From Cryobacterium inferilacus (GTDB taxonomy: Bacteria > Actinomycetota > Actinomycetes > Actinomycetales > Microbacteriaceae), in the NCBI RefSeq assembly GCF_019599185.1, contig NZ_JAIEUL010000003.1, positions 1 through 64,000 of the forward strand: a stretch of DNA of 64,000 nt, in the 5' to 3' direction. Every line of letters starts with the position of its first letter. Position 1 is the stretch's first letter. Below the pieces are notes generated by a model, which did not search any database, was not told the origin of the DNA, and saw nothing but the letters and a program-made list of their open reading frames with translations. The position numbers were made by a program, and so were the translations under genes. Below are positions 3,352 through 34,664 of this stretch, one piece after another.

Positions 3352-5672
<2,321 letters not shown>

Positions 5673-26900: not shown

Positions 26901-28223
26901 TCAAGAGGCCAGGCCGCCCCTGTCCGGCGCGTTCTCCGGCGCCAGATCGGGCACGATCCCACTGATCCGCGGCCCGGCAATGCCCATCGGATACGGCCCT
27001 GTCGTCCGAGCGGCGTCCGATGGCCGGCCCGCCGTGATGTGAGCCAGGTCGATGGCGTAGAGGACCGCCCCGAGCACCTCTGCCCGCTCGCCCAACTCGC
27101 CCTTCACCACGTCGGGCACCCCGGATGCCGTGGCCAGAGTGGACCGCTCCAGCGCGTGCCGCAGAGGGCTGAGCAGCATCTCGTCAGCCTCGGCCAGCTC
27201 ACCGCCGACCACGATGCGGTGCGGGTCGACGAGATTGCTCAGGCCGGCGAGCGCCACGCCCAGGTGCCGGCCGGCATCGGCGATCACGCGCCGCGCCGCG
27301 GCGTCGCCGGCGTTGGCCCGCAGCACGATATCGCGCAGTTTCACCTGGGTGTGGCTGCCGGGGAACTTCGCGGCGAGCGCCGCGGCCCCCACCAGGGTTT
27401 CCAGACACCCCCGGTTGCCGCAGCGGCAGACCTGGCCCTGCTCGTCGAGGGTGAGATGGCCGATCTCGCCGGCCTTTCCACTGCCGCCGCGGTATACCCG
27501 GCCGTCGATGATCAGCCCGGCGCCGACTCCGTGCGAAACGCGGAGGTAGGCTGCCTGCCGGACACCCTGCGCTGCCCCCATCCGATACTCGCCGAGGGCG
27601 CCGAGATTGGCCTCGTTGTCGACGAACACCGGCCTGCGCAATCGCGTTTCGAGTTCGTCAGCGACGGGTACTCCGTCCCAGCCGCGCATCAGGCCCCGAG
27701 TCGCGATGAGGCCGGTGCCAGGGTCGATGGGTGCGGCGAGACCCACGCCCACCGCGAGAACCTCGTCGAGGCCGGTGCCGACCGACTCGGCCATGTCCTG
27801 GATGAGCAGCACCACCCGGTCGAGCTCGCTGTCGGCGCGGTGGTCGCGGGCGAGCGGCAGCATCCGCTCGACCAGCACCTGATGCCCGGCGTCGGCCAGG
27901 GCCACCCGCAGCTGCCGGTTCGACACGTGCAGGCCCACCACCAGGCCCATCTCGCGGGCCAGGGTGACCCGCACGGCCCTCCGGCCGCTCCGTGAAGTGG
28001 GAGTGGTGGCCAGAACCCCCGCGGCGGCCTGCTCCTTGACGATGTTGGACACCGTGGCGGGTGACAGCCCGGTGACCGCGGCCAGCTCCACCTGGGTGAG
28101 GGCGCCGTGATGGGTGATCGCGTCGACGATGCGAGCGCGATTCGCCTCACGCAGAGATGACTGCGACCCGGGATTGCGGGGACTGCTCACGGGAGCCACG
28201 ATAGTGCCGGACGAGGCCACCAC
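26901..28223 (-). CDS. ROK-family transcriptional repressor
   Basis: About 440 residues. Residues 25-75 are a MarR-like winged HTH ('HHGALTQVELAAVTGLSPATVSN', in pieces). Then comes a ROK sugar-kinase-like domain with the ATP/sugar elements 'VGVGLAAPIDPGTGL', 'VFVDNEANLGALGEY' and the zinc-binding motif 'CRCGNRGCLETLVG'. This is the XylR/NagC layout: a sugar-sensing repressor, probably of the importer downstream. The start is uncertain (GTG 28223, 28220 or 28193). The gene's 5' end abuts a truncated Asp23 gene, so its promoter sits in old asp23 sequence. Confidence 0.85.
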   Translation of the reverse strand: MVASSGTIVAPVSSPRNPGSQSSLREANRARIVDAITHHGALTQVELAAVTGLSPATVSNIVKEQAAAGVLATTPTSRSGRRAVRVTLAREMGLVVGLHVSNRQLRVALADAGHQVLVERMLPLARDHRADSELDRVVLLIQDMAESVGTGLDEVLAVGVGLAAPIDPGTGLIATRGLMRGWDGVPVADELETRLRRPVFVDNEANLGALGEYRMGAAQGVRQAAYLRVSHGVGAGLIIDGRVYRGGSGKAGEIGHLTLDEQGQVCRCGNRGCLETLVGAAALAAKFPGSHTQVKLRDIVLRANAGDAAARRVIADAGRHLGVALAGLSNLVDPHRIVVGGELAEADEMLLSPLRHALERSTLATASGVPDVVKGELGERAEVLGAVLYAIDLAHITAGRPSDAARTTGPYPMGIAGPRISGIVPDLAPENAPDRGGLAS

Positions 28224-28339
28224 ACCGATTTCCGACGAACCTGGTGGGCCTGGAGGTCGTGGAGGTCAACGTCGCCGTGAACGATGTGCACCTGCCGACC
28301 GACGACCAGGATGACCAGACGGAGGCACGCGTCTCATGA
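28205..28339 (+). pseudogene. C-terminal remnant of an Asp23/Gls24 family gene
   Basis: Frame open from a stop at 28202 to TGA 28337-28339, with no credible start. From about 28241 it reads 'LVGLEVVEVNVAVNDVHLP', the highly conserved C-terminal strand of Asp23/Gls24 envelope-stress proteins (typically 'GLEV.EVN..V.D...P'). Upstream of this the sequence is unlike the family and runs into the ROK start. So the first three quarters of the gene are gone, while the downstream envelope operon remains. A late GTG at 28244 would give only about 31 residues. Confidence 0.65.
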
Positions 28340-28524
28340 GTGCAACCGTCAGTGGCATGGCCGTCGGCGCGGTCCTCGCATTCGCGGCGCTCGTCTTCGG
28401 CTTCTGGGGATTCCTCCTGGTCGCCGTGTTCATGGCGGTCGGGCTCCTGGTCGGGCGCATTGTCGAGGGCAAGCTCGACGGGCGTGGCCTCGCCAACGCC
28501 CTGACCGGAAGACGTACGTCCTGA
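28336..28524 (+). CDS. DUF2273-like small membrane protein of the Asp23 operon
   Basis: 62 residues, two membrane helices ('VGAVLAFAALVFGFWGFLLV' and 'VAVFMAVGLLVGRIV') with a Gly-rich turn and a short basic tail, as in DUF2273 proteins that accompany Asp23 and AmaP. ATG overlaps the remnant's TGA (ATGA); its own TGA overlaps the next ATG (TGATG). Coupling to the broken asp23 frame suggests its translation may be weak now. Confidence 0.75.
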   Translation: MSATVSGMAVGAVLAFAALVFGFWGFLLVAVFMAVGLLVGRIVEGKLDGRGLANALTGRRTS

Positions 28525-28919
28525 TGTCGACCGCCAGCCTCGGCTCCACCGGCCGGAAGGTCACCCTCCCGGCTGGTGCGGCCGGCTTACCCGGCCACAT
28601 CACGGTGCGACAGAACGCCTTGAACACCGTCGCCAGGGCGGTCTCCGCGGAGACGCTCGGCGTGAATCCCGGGCAGGTCACCGTGACGTTGCGGGACGAC
28701 CACGGCCTGCTCGCACTGGAGGTCACGACCCCGATCAGCATGCCAGACCTCGACACCGTGGGGCCAGACTACGCCGGACCCACCCTGCTGCAGCGGCTGT
28801 CCGACGCGCAGCTGGCCATCCGCACCATGACCACCCGCATCACCGGCAACCAGGTGGGGCGCGTGGACATCCGTGTGCGCGGCGCACACATCGCCGGGGA
28901 ACGGCGGATACCCCGATGA
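28524..28919 (+). CDS. Asp23/Gls24-related envelope protein
   Basis: 131 residues from ATG 28524; the longer frame from 28284 is a shadow. The layout is one strand-helix unit as in Asp23-like proteins: 'GHITVRQNALNTVARAVSAE', then 'QVTVTLRDDHGLLALEVTT' and a C-terminal 'GRVDIRVRGAHI'. It seems to be the second, diverged Asp23-type copy usual in actinobacterial clusters. Likely membrane-associated through the AmaP-like partner encoded downstream. Function in envelope stress is inferred from family and context. Confidence 0.65.
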   Translation: MSTASLGSTGRKVTLPAGAAGLPGHITVRQNALNTVARAVSAETLGVNPGQVTVTLRDDHGLLALEVTTPISMPDLDTVGPDYAGPTLLQRLSDAQLAIRTMTTRITGNQVGRVDIRVRGAHIAGERRIPR

Positions 28920-29491
28920 AGACTCCATACGCCCGCATTGTGCGCCGGGAGACCCACTCCCCTCGAACCGTCACGACGATCGTGCTCGCCAGCATGATCG
29001 CACTCGGCTGCGTCTACCTGGGCACCGAACTGGTGCTGCGGATGCTCGGGCAACCGGCGCTTCTGGTCACCCCGGAGGATGCACTCAGCTGGCTGGCCGC
29101 GCTGCCCACCCTGCAACCGATCTGGGCGATCGGCCTCGGCGGCGCCGTGCTGGGCCTGATCGGCCTGCTGCTCATGGTGCACGCGGTGCGGTCCGGACGG
29201 CTGGCCAGGCACCAGATGCTGCATGAGGGCCGGGCCGTGATCGTGGACAACGGGGTTCTCGCGTCGAGCATCGCCCGACGCGTCGAAACCGTCGCCCGCA
29301 TTCCGCAGGGGCAGGCCGAGGTATCGGTGTCGCACCGCCGCGCGGTCGTGGACGTCACCCCCACGTCCGGGATCCCGGTCGACGAGGCGGCCATCCGTAC
29401 CGCCGTCGCGGAGGAGATCGCCTCGTACAACCTCAAGCCAACCCTGCGCCACACCGTGCGGGTGAACACGACAGGAGCGATCGGCCCATGA
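28916..29491 (+). CDS. DUF6286-like membrane protein of the Asp23 cluster
   Basis: 191 residues, coupled on both sides by 4-base overlaps. Two membrane helices (about 21-45 and 75-98: 'IVLASMIALGCVYLGTELVL', 'AIGLGGAVLGLIGLLLMV') are followed by a cytoplasmic Asp23-like strand-helix domain ('SSIARRVETVARIPQGQAEVSVSHRRAVVDV'). This resembles DUF6286 proteins in actinobacterial Asp23/AmaP clusters. It probably anchors or pairs with the Asp23-type protein. Confidence 0.65.
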   Translation: MKTPYARIVRRETHSPRTVTTIVLASMIALGCVYLGTELVLRMLGQPALLVTPEDALSWLAALPTLQPIWAIGLGGAVLGLIGLLLMVHAVRSGRLARHQMLHEGRAVIVDNGVLASSIARRVETVARIPQGQAEVSVSHRRAVVDVTPTSGIPVDEAAIRTAVAEEIASYNLKPTLRHTVRVNTTGAIGP

Positions 29492-30105
29492 ACGACACCA
29501 ACCGGGCGTTGAACCGCCTCTTCATCTTCGTCGTCGGGCTGATCCTCCTCGTTGTGGGCGCGGCGGCCGCCGCTCTGCTGGTGTGGCCATGGTGGGCGAA
29601 CCGGTGGGAGGAGGCAGGCAGAACCGCCGACGCCGCCGTGACCGATGCCCTCGAGGCCTCCCCTGTGCCTGGCACCGACTTCAGCTGGTGGCTGCTCGCC
29701 GCCGCCGCGGTGTTGCTGCTCCTCGTCATTCTGATGGTGGTCATCATCGCCAACGTCGGTGGCGGGGGCAGCCGGGAGATCTATCGCAAACGGATCAGCG
29801 AGCAGGATGCCGCCTCGGACCGGCTGCTGATCGACACCTCGTTCGCGGCGGAGGCGCTCAAGCACTCCCTCGACAAACGCCCAGACCTGGTCGGCAGCAC
29901 CGTCGGCGCGTTCACGGTGAAGCGCCGGCCCGTGCTGCACCTGGGCATCACACCGCGGCAGGGCGTCTCGCCCCGACTCATCGTGGAGGAAGCCGACCGG
30001 CTGATCGACAACCTCGCCCGGGTCGTCGGTGACGCCCCCGCAACCTGTCTCACCATCCACTCGGGGCTGCGCGCCAAGCTCGGCCACGACCAGCGCGTGC
30101 GCTGA
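29488..30105 (+). CDS. AmaP-like membrane anchor of the Asp23 cluster
   Basis: 205 residues. Two helices (about 10-32 'LFIFVVGLILLVVGAAAAALL' and about 66-90) with a short outside loop, then a soluble C-domain ('GSTVGAFTVKRRPVLHLGI', 'EADRLIDNLARVVGD') like AmaP. In staphylococci AmaP tethers Asp23 to the membrane. It ends the operon; the next gene has its own promoter. Confidence 0.65.
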   Translation: MNDTNRALNRLFIFVVGLILLVVGAAAAALLVWPWWANRWEEAGRTADAAVTDALEASPVPGTDFSWWLLAAAAVLLLLVILMVVIIANVGGGGSREIYRKRISEQDAASDRLLIDTSFAAEALKHSLDKRPDLVGSTVGAFTVKRRPVLHLGITPRQGVSPRLIVEEADRLIDNLARVVGDAPATCLTIHSGLRAKLGHDQRVR

Positions 30106-30163
30106 CCGGCTCGGTTCGCCCTCGGCGCCGGCGCCGTGGGCACTGTTCTACCCTGACGGATGC

Positions 30164-30202
30164 CTATTGACAATCGATAGGCAACGTATTGATAATCGAT
30201 AG
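30164..30202 (+). promoter_or_regulatory. Promoter with two superimposed operators for DUF2975/XRE
   Basis: CTATTGACAATCGATAG (30164-30180) and GTATTGATAATCGATAG (30186-30202) are direct repeats, 22 bases apart, each an imperfect palindrome. Repeat 1 contains TTGACA (-35, 30167-30172) and repeat 2 contains GATAAT (-10, 30191-30196), with an 18-base spacer. The -10 ends six bases before the ATG, so the transcript is leaderless. Binding of the XRE protein to both repeats would shut the promoter. Confidence 0.7.
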
Positions 30203-30688
30203 ATGACCCTGACGACGCCGACCACATCCCATCCCGCCATGATCGCGCTGACACGGGTGGCCCTCGGCGTTCTCGTCGTTCTGGTCGTTCTCGGTGAGGT
30301 GGTGGTCATCATCTCCGCCTCGTCCTCCGCCGAGCTCTACCCGGAATTCGCCTACCTGCAGGTGCCCTTCGTCATCGCGGCGCTCGCGTTCGGCGTCTGC
30401 GTGGAGGTGGCCCTGGTCGTCACCGCCGTGCTGGTGGGCTACACCCGCGATCGCCGCATTTTCGAGCCGGCCGCGCTGAGACTGGTGGACTCCCTGACCA
30501 GCGCGATCGCCGTGGCCACGATCATCGTGGTGGCCGTGCTGGTGGCGATTCCGGGCCCACCCGCATTGGCGCTGCTGCTGCTCGGCGGTGCGGCCGTCGG
30601 GGCCGCCTTCGCGCTGGTTCTCCTCGTTCTCCGCTCCCTCCTCCGCAGCGCGGTGTCGATGCGGGTGGAGCTGGACGAGGTGGTGTGA
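30203..30688 (+). CDS. DUF2975 membrane protein
   Basis: 161 residues with four membrane helices ('VALGVLVVLVVLGEVVVII', 'VPFVIAALAFGVCVEVALVV', 'AVATIIVVAVLVAI', 'LALLLLGGAAVGAAFALVL') in the order typical of DUF2975. These proteins are almost always encoded with a small YozG-like Cro/CI regulator, as here. Function unknown. The next gene starts at its stop (GTGATG). Leaderless start; no ribosome site is possible because the operator touches the ATG. Confidence 0.8.
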   Translation: MTLTTPTTSHPAMIALTRVALGVLVVLVVLGEVVVIISASSSAELYPEFAYLQVPFVIAALAFGVCVEVALVVTAVLVGYTRDRRIFEPAALRLVDSLTSAIAVATIIVVAVLVAIPGPPALALLLLGGAAVGAAFALVLLVLRSLLRSAVSMRVELDEVV

Positions 30689-30894
30689 TGGCGGTCCAGG
30701 TTCTGATCGACCGGCTGCTGGCCGAACGACGGATGTCGGTGGGCGAGTTCGCCGCCAGGGTCGGCATCACCCCGGCGAATGTGGCCGTGCTGAAGAACGG
30801 TCGTGCCCGCGCGATCCGGTTCTCCACCCTCGACGCGATCTGCCGGGTGCTCGAGTGCCAGCCCGGCGACATTCTGGTCTGGACCGAGGACTAG
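30685..30894 (+). CDS. YozG-like Cro/CI-type regulator
   Basis: 69 residues (or 68 from ATG 30688), a bare HTH: 'MSVGEFAARVGITPANVAVLKNGRARAIRF' in two helices, ending 'ICRVLECQPGDILVW', the hallmark of the YozG/HTH_26 group. It is coupled to DUF2975 and most likely controls this operon through the twin repeats at 30164-30202. Confidence 0.88.
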   Translation: MMAVQVLIDRLLAERRMSVGEFAARVGITPANVAVLKNGRARAIRFSTLDAICRVLECQPGDILVWTED

Positions 30895-30920
30895 GCCGGC
30901 TGCCCGCCTCCCCCGCAGCG

Positions 30921-31517
30921 TCAGGGCCGGCCGAACCGGGTCGCCAATCCCGGGTAGTCGATCACGATGCCGTCGGAATCGACGGTCAACTCGGCGTGGA
31001 AGTCGCCGCTGGCGCTACGGAACCGCACCCGGCCGGGCATCGATGCGGCATACACCTGGTCGCTCCGGAACACCCGCAGGGAGGGCACCTCGATCCAGGC
31101 CATCACCAGGGAGGTCTCCTGGACGTTCCCGTTCAGCAGCCCCAGGCGGCGGATCGGCATGGTGTTCGTCGCCGGGCACAGGGCGATGTCGCAGTCGAGT
31201 GCACCGTCCACGCTGCCGGGGTCAGCGAGTCCGGCGGGCGGAAGATCCGCGTCGCCGTGCATCTGGGTCACCGCGGTCCAGTGGTCGTTCTCGTCCCGGA
31301 TGAGGGCCAGCGAGCGCATCCAGCCGGCGCCGTGAGCGCTGATGTCGACCGTGCGGGTGCGCCAGGCATCGGAGGCATCCAGCGACCAGGCGGTGGCGTA
31401 CGCGGCCGTGATCGAGGCGCCCTGAGCCTCCATGCCGCTCTGGCCGATCTCGATCAACGCTCGATCGATGCGACCAGGGTCATCGTGCCCGCGCCAGGCC
31501 ACATCCGACTGCGTCAT
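30921..31517 (-). CDS. Putative glycolipid-binding (DUF1089) protein
   Basis: 198 residues from ATG 31517; the longer frame to 31625 crosses a palindromic repeat and is not credible. A beta-rich barrel of the glycolipid-binding family (PF06475 type): 'ASITAAYATAWSLDASDAWRTR', 'GAGWMRSLALIRDENDHWT' and 'ALDCDIALCPATNTMPIRRLGL' are the recurring marks ('D.D...CP.TNT.PIRRL'). Soluble, no signal peptide. Physiological ligand unknown. Confidence 0.75.
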   Translation of the reverse strand: MTQSDVAWRGHDDPGRIDRALIEIGQSGMEAQGASITAAYATAWSLDASDAWRTRTVDISAHGAGWMRSLALIRDENDHWTAVTQMHGDADLPPAGLADPGSVDGALDCDIALCPATNTMPIRRLGLLNGNVQETSLVMAWIEVPSLRVFRSDQVYAASMPGRVRFRSASGDFHAELTVDSDGIVIDYPGLATRFGRP

Positions 31518-31559
31518 GCCCCCATGATGCCCAGGATGCTGCCGACAGGTAAGGCGGGC

Positions 31560-31642
31560 ACGTACAGGCGGAGATCTTCGTGAATCGCCGTTCCGGGCAC
31601 GTGCGGAAACACGGCGTGTCGGCAAAAACTCCGCCTTTACGT
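31560..31642. repeat. Palindromic repeat family A-like, copy 3 (83 bp)
   Basis: Arms ACGTACAGGCGGAG / CTCCGCCTTTACGT (13 of 14 paired). The core TTCCGGGCACGTGCGGAAA resembles the core of copies 1 and 2 (GGGCA...TGC.GGAA). The arms differ from copies 1 and 2, so it is a subfamily. It lies just downstream of mmsA and may act as its terminator. Confidence 0.65.
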
Positions 31643-31648
31643 CGCCAG

Positions 31649-33148
31649 CTAGGTGTTCTGCGGGAAGCCCAGGTTGATGCCGCCGTGGCTGGGGTCGAGC
31701 CAGCGGGCGGTGACGGCCTTCTCCCGGGTGTAGAAGCTGATGCCGGCGGGGCCGTAGGCCTTGGCGTCGCCGAACAGGGAGTCCTTCCAGCCGCCGAACG
31801 AGTGGTACGCCACCGGCACCGGGATCGGCACGTTGATGCCGACCATGCCCACCTGCACCTCGTGCTGGAACCGCCGGGCGGCGCCACCGTCATTGGTGAA
31901 GATGGCGGTGCCGTTGCCGTATCTGCTGGCGTTGATCACGGCCACCCCATCGGTGTAGCTGGCCACCCGAACGACGCTGAGCACCGGGCCGAAGATCTCG
32001 TCCTGGTAGACGGCGGAGTCGAGGCTGACCCTGTCGAACAGGGTGGGGCCGAGCCAGAAACCGGATGCGTCGCCGTCGACCTCGATGCCGCGCCCGTCGA
32101 TCACGACGTCCGCGCCGTCCGCCAGGGCGATGTCGATGTAACCGGCGACCTTGTCGCGGTGCGCCTCGGTGATCAGCGGGCCCATGTCGCAGCCGCGCAT
32201 GCCGTCGCCCACCGTGAGGCCCCTCACGCGCTCGGCGATCTTGGCGATGAGCTCGTCGGCGACGGGCTCGACGGCCACGATCACGCTGATGGCCATGCAG
32301 CGCTCCCCCGCCGACCCGAAGCCGGCGTTGACCGCGGCATCCGCGGCCAGGTCGAGGTCGGCATCCGGCAGCACCAGCATGTGGTTCTTCGCGCCGCCGA
32401 GCGCCTGCACCCGCTTGCCGTGGTGCGCGGCGGTCTCGTAGATGTACTTGGCGATCGGGGTGGAGCCGACGAAGGAGATGGCCTGCACGTCGGGGTTGAC
32501 CAGCAGGGCGTCGACGGCCTCCTTGTCGCCGTGCACGACGTTGAAGACCCCGTCGGGCAGGCCGGCCTCGGTGAGCAGGGCGGCGAGCCAGTTGGCGGCG
32601 GACGGGTCCTTTTCGCTGGGCTTGAGCACGACGGTGTTGCCCGCGGCGATGGCGATGGGAAAGAACCAGAGCGGCACCATGGCCGGGAAGTTGAACGGGC
32701 TGATGATGCCGACCACACCGAGCGGCTGCCGCAGGGTGTAGACGTCGACGCCGGTGGAGACGTTCTCGGAGAACTCGCCTTTGGCCAGGTGCGGCAGGCC
32801 GAGTGCGAACTCGACGACCTCGAGGCCGCGGGCGATCTCGCCGAGGGCGTCTGAGGTGACCTTGCCGTGTTCATTGGTGAGGATGTCGGCCAGCTCACCC
32901 TTGCGGGCGTTGAGCAGTTCACGGAAGGAGAACATGACGCCCTGGCGTTTGGCGATGGAGGCGTCACGCCAGGCCGGGTAGGCGGCCTGGGCCGAGGCGA
33001 CGACGGTGTCGACATCGGCGGCGGAGGCCAGGGACACCAGGCGCTGCACTGCGCCGGTGGCCGGGTTGTAGACGGGGGCGGTACGAGTGGAGGCGCCGGT
33101 TCCGGGGGCGCCGTCGATCCAGTGGGTGAGGACGGGGAGGTCGGTCAT
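31649..33148 (-). CDS. mmsA: CoA-acylating methylmalonate/malonate-semialdehyde dehydrogenase
   Basis: 499 residues, the full MmsA length. Catalytic Cys in 'GSAGERCMAISVIV' (about residue 284), NAD-fold 'SFVGSTPIAKYIYETAA' and the MmsA-specific 'YNPATGAVQRLVSLAS', 'QALGGAKNHMLVLPDAD', 'HEVQVGMVGINVPIPVPVAYHSF'. It converts malonate semialdehyde to acetyl-CoA (or methylmalonate semialdehyde to propionyl-CoA). As last gene after a beta-alanine-type aminotransferase, it closes the route from uracil/thymine via beta-alanine to acetyl- or propionyl-CoA. Confidence 0.92.
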   Translation of the reverse strand: MTDLPVLTHWIDGAPGTGASTRTAPVYNPATGAVQRLVSLASAADVDTVVASAQAAYPAWRDASIAKRQGVMFSFRELLNARKGELADILTNEHGKVTSDALGEIARGLEVVEFALGLPHLAKGEFSENVSTGVDVYTLRQPLGVVGIISPFNFPAMVPLWFFPIAIAAGNTVVLKPSEKDPSAANWLAALLTEAGLPDGVFNVVHGDKEAVDALLVNPDVQAISFVGSTPIAKYIYETAAHHGKRVQALGGAKNHMLVLPDADLDLAADAAVNAGFGSAGERCMAISVIVAVEPVADELIAKIAERVRGLTVGDGMRGCDMGPLITEAHRDKVAGYIDIALADGADVVIDGRGIEVDGDASGFWLGPTLFDRVSLDSAVYQDEIFGPVLSVVRVASYTDGVAVINASRYGNGTAIFTNDGGAARRFQHEVQVGMVGINVPIPVPVAYHSFGGWKDSLFGDAKAYGPAGISFYTREKAVTARWLDPSHGGINLGFPQNT

Positions 33149-33177
33149 GTCAGTCGATTCTGTTGGGGGTGAGAGCG

Positions 33178-33325
33178 GTTGATCGAGCTTGTCGAGATCT
33201 GGTTAGCCGTCCTCTGAACGTAGGCACGGTCACCGGGTCTCGACAAGCTCGACCAACGTATGGGGACGGGTCTCGACAAGCTCGACCAGCGATCGGGGGC
33301 GGGTTTCGACAAGCTCAACCAGCGA
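33178..33325. repeat. Cluster of four 'TCGACAAGCTCGACCA' repeats (family C)
   Basis: Copies at about 33178-33200 (inverted), 33235-33258, 33268-33291 and 33300-33325, each TCTCGACAAGCTCGACCA or a near variant. The last copy enters the aminotransferase gene and encodes its final residues and stop. Inverted pairs can fold into hairpins. Confidence 0.85.
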
Positions 33326-34664
33326 GGTCGAGGGAGAGGACCTCGTCGTAGATGGCGAGGGCCTCGGCCACCTCGGAGTCGGTGACGACGCAAGGCGGCA
33401 CCACGTGGATGCGGTTCTCCATGATGAAGGGCAGCAGGTTGCGGGCCAGCAGCTCGGTCTTGATCCGGCCCATCACGGCCGGCGACACCGGCTCACGGGT
33501 CACGGGGTCGGCCACGAGCTCGATCGCCCAGAAGACGCCCTCGCCGCGCACCTCCCCGATGATCGGGTGTTTCGCCGCCAGCGCCGCGAGGCCAGGGCCG
33601 ATCGCCTCGGTGCCGATCCGGGCGGCGTTCTCCACGATGCCCTCCTCGGCCATGGCGTCCAGCGCCGCGACGATCGAGGCCATCGCCAACGGATGCCCGC
33701 TGTAGGTGAGCCCGCCGGGGAACACGGTCTCGTCGAAGTCGGCGGCGATCGGGTCGGAGATGATCACCCCGCCGACGGGCACGTAGCCGGAGTTGACCCC
33801 CTTGGCGAAGGTGATCAGGTCGGGCACCACCCCGCTGCCCTCGAACGCGAACCAGCGCCCGGTGCGGCCGAAGCCCGCCATCACCTCGTCGAGGATGAGC
33901 ATGATGCCGTACCGGTCGCAGAGCGCCCGCACTCCGGCGAGGTAGCCGGGCGGTGGCATCAGCACCCCGGCGGTGCCAGGGATGGACTCCAGCAGCACGG
34001 CGGCGATCGAGGTGGCACCCTCGCTCTGGATGACCCGCTCGAGGTGGTGCAGGGCCCGCTCGGTTTCCTGCTCGGGCGTCGTCGCCCAGAACTCGGATCG
34101 GTAGAGGTAGGGGCCGAAGAAATGCACGTGCCCGCGAGCGTATTCGTTGGGGATCCGGCGCCAGTCGCCGGTGGCGACGATGGCCGCGCCGGTGTTGCCG
34201 TGGTACGAGCGGTAGGTGGAGAGCACGGTGTCGCGGCCGGTGTGCAGGCGGGCCATCCGGATGGCGTTCTCGTTGGCATCCGCACCGCCGTTGGTGAAGA
34301 AGATCTTGTTGAAGCCGGCCGGAGCACGGTCGACGATACGCCGAGCTGCCTCGCCGCGGGCCAGGTTGGCGGTGGACGGCGCGATGGTGGTGAGCAGTTT
34401 CGCCTGCTCGATGATGCCCCTGATCACGGCCGGATGCTGGTGGCCGATGTTGACGTTCACCAGCTGGCTGGAGAAATCGAGGTAGCTGCGCCCGTCGTGG
34501 TCCCAGACCCGGCAGCCGAGGCCGCCGGCGATGACGAGGGGCTTCAGTGCCCCCTGGGCGGACCAGGAGTGGAAGACGTGGGCCCGGTCGAGCTCGGTGG
34601 TGACTTCGTTCAGGCCGGCAGCGGCGGGAGCGGCTGTTCCGGTGTCGGTGTCGATGTCGGTCAC
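33315..34664 (-). CDS. Class III aminotransferase, likely beta-alanine:pyruvate/omega-amino acid type
   Basis: 449 residues from GTG 34664, preceded by GAAGGAA. PLP-enzyme marks: 'FFTNGGADANENAIRMARLHTGRD', 'YRSYHGNTGAAI', 'MLILDEVMAGFGRTGRWFA' (Asp for the PLP nitrogen) and the Schiff-base Lys in 'ITFAKGVNSGYVPVGGV' (about 288). With a dihydropyrimidinase, a ureidopropionase and MmsA in the same cluster, it most likely transaminates beta-alanine (and beta-aminoisobutyrate) to the semialdehyde. The C-terminal 'LAG' and stop come from a repeat element. Confidence 0.82.
   Translation of the reverse strand: MTDIDTDTGTAAPAAAGLNEVTTELDRAHVFHSWSAQGALKPLVIAGGLGCRVWDHDGRSYLDFSSQLVNVNIGHQHPAVIRGIIEQAKLLTTIAPSTANLARGEAARRIVDRAPAGFNKIFFTNGGADANENAIRMARLHTGRDTVLSTYRSYHGNTGAAIVATGDWRRIPNEYARGHVHFFGPYLYRSEFWATTPEQETERALHHLERVIQSEGATSIAAVLLESIPGTAGVLMPPPGYLAGVRALCDRYGIMLILDEVMAGFGRTGRWFAFEGSGVVPDLITFAKGVNSGYVPVGGVIISDPIAADFDETVFPGGLTYSGHPLAMASIVAALDAMAEEGIVENAARIGTEAIGPGLAALAAKHPIIGEVRGEGVFWAIELVADPVTREPVSPAVMGRIKTELLARNLLPFIMENRIHVVPPCVVTDSEVAEALAIYDEVLSLDLAG

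Follow-up and report, generated by a model that had tools for sequence, protein, structure and literature searches.

Two small genes on the same strand were identified in the window, i.e., the whole stretch of 64,000 nucleotides that was analyzed (Table 1). The product of the first gene matched the Pfam family DUF2975 with 72.2 bits against a curated cut-off of 27, its residues 40-161 aligning to positions 4-130 of the 130-position profile, and that of the second matched HTH_26 with 77.2 bits against a cut-off of 22. The HTH_26 gene is located directly 3′ of the DUF2975 gene, and the stop and start codons share one base. The first-pass annotation had assigned 69 amino acids to the second protein, starting at a GTG at position 30685, but the 68-amino acid product that starts at the ATG at 30688 is likelier, since the one-base overlap is kept in relatives. 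The same annotation called this protein YozG-like; the profile search gives HTH_26. The hexamer GAGGTG in front of the second gene is presumably its Shine-Dalgarno sequence, judging by a comparison with the anti-Shine-Dalgarno sequence. The flanking genes tested by Pfam (DUF6286-like and Trp_oprn_chp-like matches, both under the cut-off, and a convergent Glycolipid_bind gene) had no evident tie to the pair, and no toxin operon was suggested among the ORFs of positions 27500-33500, five proteins of which were analyzed with Pfam. A second DUF2975 match in the genome of the window (C44:223915, E 8e-4, under the cut-off) was considered as a further pair and rejected, because inspection by eye of the surrounding ORF list revealed no HTH pair.

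Table 1. Coordinates of the genes, predicted operators and promoter elements of the DUF2975/HTH_26 locus in the window.
Feature	Position	Strand	Details and basis
Operator 1 (predicted), CTATTGACAATCGATAG	30164-30180	+	Imperfect dyad CTATTGA-CAA-TCGATAG; holds the -35; conserved in relatives
-35 hexamer TTGACA	30167-30172	+	Promoter-pattern search
Operator 2 (predicted), GTATTGATAATCGATAG	30186-30202	+	Imperfect dyad GTATTGA-TAA-TCGATAG; holds the -10; touches the start codon; conserved in relatives
-10 hexamer GATAAT (GAnnnT in leaderless relatives)	30191-30196	+	Promoter-pattern search; relatives
Predicted transcription start, A of the start codon (leaderless mRNA)	30203	+	Hexamer spacing; 7 nt behind the -10
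DUF2975 membrane-protein gene	30203-30688	+	161 aa; Pfam PF11188, E 5e-20
Tail codons, residues 142-161, ending VELDEVV	30626-30685	+	Conserved in relatives
Likely Shine-Dalgarno of the second gene, GAGGTG, also tail codons	30677-30682	+	Sequence; junction letters, 131 loci
HTH_26 (Cro/CI-type) putative DNA-binding protein gene	30688-30894	+	68 aa; Pfam PF13443, E 1e-21

The region upstream of the pair was described in the first-pass annotation as two 17-base repeats, 22 bases apart, which contain TTGACA and GATAAT with an 18-base spacer and the second of which touches the ATG. All of these elements were borne out: the two sites are identical at 15 of 17 bases, their starts are 22 nt apart, the hexamers lie inside them, and site 2 ends at position 30202, immediately before the ATG at 30203. 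With 11 of 12 bases and the 18-base spacer, TTGACA/GATAAT was the sole promoter-like match in positions 29900-31000 (mean of 50 shuffles, 0.0). In addition, each site is an imperfect dyad, CTATYGA-N3-TCRATAG, a property that had not been remarked upon. Site 1 is the sole exact match to this dyad in the 4.0-Mb genome, and when the outer bases are removed, giving TATYGANNNTCRATA, the exact matches are sites 1 and 2 only.

Conservation upstream of orthologous pairs had been named beforehand as the test for the repeat. The loci compared were all picked by protein similarity, best-scoring first and never by motif, and are not a random sample. The first set took all 27 places found in the genus and 30 of the 60 found in the family (57 loci fetched, 55 kept; L001, L057 and L037 were left out as repeats), and the wider set was composed of the best 80 of at least 585 relatives found by scanning GTDB genomes with the HTH alignment. 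Two of the latter, L095 and L128, repeat first-set loci (same contigs as L035 and L042); they were excluded from the spacing, shuffle, tail and distance counts and retained in the wider-scan counts of gene order and of the core. The repeat was kept. Its core, TATYG-N5-CRATA, was present with at most one mismatch upstream of the genes in 55/55 Microbacteriaceae loci (mean of shuffles, 1.5) and in 74/79 loci of the wider scan (mean, 0.8), with a fixed 21-nt spacing, and was absent in the remaining 5 of the 79. A family search supplied 16 further loci, all over the Pfam cut-off and separate from the 132 actinobacterial loci of the counts given below, and the core was found, at the same stringency, in 11 of the 13 that have an HTH partner; the family-search places outside the samples were one repeat of L009 and 13 under the cut-off. 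A plasmid and phage set was taken as 16 of 210 plasmid and 23 phage records, with L147 and L158 left out of the operator count, and L147 of the tail count, for having no clear DUF2975 ORF or start. The core with at most one mismatch was detected in 9 of 13 Bacillota/Pseudomonadota loci of this set (shuffles, 0.75) and was absent in the other four (L148, L150, L151 and L155).

The arrangement of the two sites was conserved as well. A pair of cores 20-22 nt apart was present in 128 of the 132 non-repeated actinobacterial loci (mean of shuffles, 9.4; maximum, 17), the spacing rule giving no pair in L049, L106, L134 and L137, and strict limits left 98 of 132 loci, 20 shuffles giving 0. In 124 of the 128 loci the best pair was spaced by 21 nt and in four by 22 nt, one of which is the window; the 22-nt interval therefore stands for the window but not as the norm, relatives having mostly 21 nt (promoter spacer, 17). 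The leaderless arrangement proposed for the window was kept in 80 of the 128 loci, where the second core is followed within 4 nt by a start codon (73 ATG, 7 GTG). The -35 region of these loci reads TTGAC (80-100% per base) and the -10 region GAnnnT (A 91%, T 98%). The 21-nt spacing thus serves two helical turns and the 17-nt promoter spacer at once. A short leader is present in another clade, in which AGGA occurs at the end of site 2; L004 was put in the leader class by the pairing rule, and by eye its sites are 22 nt apart with the ATG behind the second one. Outside Actinomycetota only 4 of 13 loci, of Bacillota/Pseudomonadota, have a clear 21-nt pair, which indicates that the twin layout is mainly actinobacterial. 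Three putative viral or prophage contigs (L167, L169 and L173) carry DUF2975/HTH_26 pairs with the exact core, and variant palindromes with the same geometry, TTAATG-N5-CATTAA, stand before divergent pairs in the viral contigs L171 and L174, where altered specificity is possible. A comparison by eye of variant operators with the letters of the recognition helix yielded no simple rule for a specificity code.

Specificity was assessed by searching 60 genomes, blind to genes, for pairs of cores with a spacing of 21 and up to 3 mismatches. Fifteen places in 14 genomes were returned, against 0 in the reversed control, and 14 of the 15 precede a DUF2975/HTH module (12 are loci of the genus search, and there are two more). 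Neither the genome of the window, whose spacing is 22, nor seven others of the genus in which DUF2975 was matched (G005, G011, G018, G031, G041, G044 and G047) were hit by the pattern, so that this search measures specificity and not sensitivity. The fifteenth place, in G223, stands before an unlinked gene for a DUF4153 membrane protein (Pfam E 3e-56), behind which lie two alpha/beta-hydrolase ORFs. About 170 kb off, the same contig carries a membrane-protein/HTH pair that has its own site and a DUF2975-like tail. This DUF4153 gene is the sole candidate target in trans that was seen, and the operator pair before it means that regulation of self only is not universal. In the same locus (L257, G223:C11:206500-212500), three operator-type sites were noted near 5380, 5401 and 5432, before the DUF4153 gene.

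In the genome of the window, TATYGANNNTCRATA with one mismatch was located at three places (reversed control, 2), one of them before a second pair formed by genes for a 214-amino acid membrane protein and an HTH_26 protein that overlap by one base. Pfam made no DUF2975 call for the 214-amino acid protein, which ends in RLQQDTAGLV. The second pair occupies positions 1468-2400 of L062 (G000:C44:103202-106216), with operator-like sites 33 nt apart in front of it, and tails akin to that of its membrane protein (RLQRDTDGLV and the like) were observed in L273, L274 and L275.

As judged by the distribution of its sites, the regulator looks almost wholly devoted to its own kind of operon. A different possibility is that the sites at home provide mere feedback and that the main output of a CylR-like or LytTR-like signaling pair lies elsewhere in the genome. 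There are precedents in the excerpts cited: the promoter bound by CylR2 belongs to a separate toxin operon, the induction of which requires CylR1 (PMC3709268), and LytTR systems govern further regulons (PMC6193735); the operator pair before the unlinked DUF4153 gene of G223 points in the same direction. We consider this unlikely here, because the exact core occurs in the genome of the window at three places, two of which are sites 1 and 2, so that only one further place is left and the total equals that of the reversed control (three), and because 14 of the 15 pair places in the 60 genomes belong to the module, a count that single or weak sites would escape. The same specificity bears on the idea that the repeats are conserved promoter elements only and not operators. 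That they hold the -35 and -10 hexamers is what such elements would do, but the dyad arms beyond the hexamers are conserved, the core is kept in Bacillota/Pseudomonadota, where it stands at other distances from the gene, and the pair pattern is nearly specific to the module. The idea, to which we attach hardly any probability, was dropped because of the conserved arms outside the hexamers and the module-specific pattern.

The two genes are tightly coupled. An HTH ORF lies directly behind the DUF2975 gene in 54 of the 55 first-set loci, with the one-base overlap in 52 of the 54; in the wider scan the DUF2975 gene is directly upstream of the HTH gene in 79/80 loci, with the overlap in 71/79, and an HTH gene follows in 13 of the 16 further loci. 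Protein distances of the two partners correlate (r 0.79, n = 117, permutation maximum 0.14), a correlation that also reflects common descent, and the median pairwise difference over these 117 loci is 67% for DUF2975 against 28% for the HTH protein. Among 57 genomes of the genus, 24 gave a DUF2975 match, as did 50 of 150 in the family (the genome of the window being counted in both); matches were also found in 18 of 198 genomes of a phylum-wide draw, 12 of them over the cut-off, and in the B. subtilis genome used as a control. Relatives of the HTH protein turned up on plasmids as well as on viral contigs; the DUF2975 protein, used as a query against plasmids, gave no match.

A toxin-antitoxin-like module, in which DUF2975 would be a membrane toxin and the HTH protein the autoregulating antitoxin, could also account for a pair of short genes that overlap, are inherited together and have operators on their promoter; the HTH relatives on plasmids and viral contigs and the patchy presence in the genus (24/57 genomes) would suit it. 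Against it, DUF2975 genes without an HTH gene behind them exist in L266, L271 and L272, and in G004 (L003) the HTH gene is degenerate while the DUF2975 domain is still an open frame. This explanation is regarded as very improbable. In the three genes without an HTH partner the C-terminal tail described below and the core with at most one mismatch are both absent (3/3 each). Tail, operator and HTH gene seem from these sequences to be lost together, three cases being few.

The DUF2975 protein diverges fast, but its C-terminal end, which in Actinomycetota mostly reads L-R-x-[DE]-[LM]-x-x-V-[IV]-COOH, is conserved across phyla. The penultimate residue is V in 131/131 actinobacterial loci and the last one is I in 89, V in 41 and L in 1; D or E occupies position -6 in 129/131 and L, M or I position -5 in 131/131. 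In this phylum the tail codons probably double as the ribosome-binding site of the HTH gene, which could explain part of the conservation. Yet a terminal V or I was also present in 14 of 14 loci from outside Actinomycetota (e.g., SENDLTV, DEQELVI, QEQEDYTV and DENNQFV), although the two genes are separated there by 1-16 nt instead of overlapping. A V or I end was also found in all 13 of the 16 further DUF2975 loci that have an HTH gene, and in 8/8 viral-contig partners, four of them nearly identical, that match the DUF2975 model at E <1e-3 among 23 distinct upstream ORFs from 80 loci; three of the ORFs outside the model (L168, L171 and L180) have a conforming tail.

An AlphaFold2 model of the DUF2975 protein built with 69 aligned proteins consists of four long helices (mean pLDDT 91.9, pTM 0.81). 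With loop boundaries set by eye, four K/R residues are in loop 2-3 and three in the tail, loops 1-2 and 3-4 having none, and on the basis of these loop charges both ends are predicted to be cytoplasmic. A comparison of the model with the PDB returned no match at E <=0.001; the weaker rows consist of helical bundles (Z up to 9.8), which are common for such models. The AlphaFold2 model of the HTH protein (pLDDT 87.5) matched Stl, VanUg and CylR2 in the PDB, the Foldseek values for CylR2 (2xiu_A) being E 8e-4 and TM 0.80/0.82. With a conserved free carboxyl end, a predicted cytoplasmic side and a co-inherited soluble partner, the DUF2975 end is best read as a docking tail for the HTH protein, the chief alternative being a degron for a membrane protease.

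Taken together, we infer that the pair is probably negatively autoregulated, with the HTH_26 protein binding to and repressing its own operon and the DUF2975 protein sensing and providing the input by docking through its tail. HTH_26 dimers would bind the two palindromes, which are 21-22 bp or about two helical turns apart, so that one dimer would cover the -35 and the next one the -10 and the start of the leaderless promoter, and RNA polymerase would thereby be excluded. The sign of the regulation is assigned from position, because the sites cover both promoter hexamers and the start site. In the genome of the window the HTH protein would have few or no targets beyond such operons. The DUF2975 protein would act as the input, its cytoplasmic C-terminal helix ending in the tail that contacts the HTH protein, and the state of the membrane or the envelope may set the amount of free repressor.

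The opposite sign was also considered: the HTH protein could activate the promoter and be inhibited by DUF2975, as a membrane protein and a small regulator share one operon and the repeats that serve LytTR positive feedback are placed, in the excerpt cited, immediately 5′ of the -35 (PMC6193735). In the window, the -10 and the start site are overlaid by site 2, and the promoter is near consensus already (11/12), both of which make activation a very unlikely alternative. Activators seldom bind over the -10 and the start site.

For the probably autorepressed pair, the CylR1/CylR2 system of the Enterococcus faecalis cytolysin operon is the nearest working analogue. According to the excerpt cited, it consists of a small membrane protein and an HTH repressor of about 66 residues that binds at a promoter, and its signal path is described as not understood (PMC3709268). 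The likeness extends to structure, since the HTH model matches the CylR2 structures 2xiu and 1utx with a TM of about 0.8. There are differences too. CylR2 is reported to repress a toxin operon that is divergent, whereas the genome of the window shows no second kind of target, and CylR1, compared by description, has three transmembrane segments while DUF2975 has four predicted helices. The LytTR systems HdrRM and BrsRM are likewise autoregulated two-gene operons of a regulator and a membrane protein with repeats at their own promoter; they are said in the excerpt cited to be widespread and mostly uncharacterized (PMC6193735). Their repeats are direct, located upstream of the -35 and used for positive feedback, as far as this excerpt goes, while those described here are palindromes on the -35 and -10, and the gene order is reversed, the membrane protein being first here. 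The pair is not a LytTR member: the regulator is of the HTH_26 and not the LytTR family, and direct repeats upstream of the -35 are absent. VanUg (3tyr) and SaPI2 Stl (8q86) are the nearest solved sequence or structures to the HTH protein, a relation of fold or domain only that implies no membrane partner.

The yoaS-yozG genes of Bacillus subtilis constitute another DUF2975/HTH pair. In Streptomyces cacaoi, cppC-cppD places DUF2975 beside a small HTH gene in the excerpt cited (PMC7827011). No function or operator for either of these pairs was found in the literature searched, which excludes most subscription papers. In that literature DUF2975 was named in two papers, once in a figure legend and once in a table, and no dedicated study of the DUF2975/HTH pair, nor one of leaderless autorepressed operators dealing with this pair, was found by title. 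A YozG subfamily of XRE regulators is described, and called barely characterized, in restriction-modification cassettes, where it precedes methyltransferase and nuclease genes; the excerpt cited mentions no membrane partner (PMC12376442). Annotated plasmids already show the two genes side by side, so that what is novel is the operator with its geometry, together with the tail.

A bolder proposal, which we hold tentatively and with somewhat less than even confidence, is that DUF2975/HTH_26 pairs are a widespread, unrecognized class of phosphorylation-free membrane-to-DNA switches that work by negative feedback, as a mirror of the LytTR systems. One operator code across phyla (TATYG-N5-CRATA) and one docking tail with a free V or I carboxylate would unite partners with membrane domains too divergent to be recognized, among them the second pair of the genome with its RLQQDTAGLV end. 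DUF2975 is an uncharacterized family present in several phyla, and the operator, the promoter geometry and the candidate docking tail make its role directly testable. If repression is true, a leaderless transcript with one operator on its -35 and another on its -10 would be a very compact natural autorepressor.

Some loci depart from the usual arrangement. L003/L166 (G004:C9, about 512000-515400) has twin operators and DUF2975 with the degenerate HTH gene, and the open frame of the DUF2975 domain continues through the HTH remnant to another membrane stretch. L129 (KL569154.1, 1300-2204), from Streptomyces violaceus, has an HTH gene without a recognized upstream DUF2975 ORF; KEVI* is found just before it and is perhaps the remnant of a truncated partner. 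L093 (WNZI01000008.1), titled Vibrio cholerae strain 35D, contains a DUF2975/HTH pair of the actinobacterial type, and the record is probably mislabeled or contaminated. L151 (NZ_CP079740.1, 266-1722), a Paraclostridium plasmid, carries a DUF3955 gene, two DUF2975 genes in tandem and one HTH gene.
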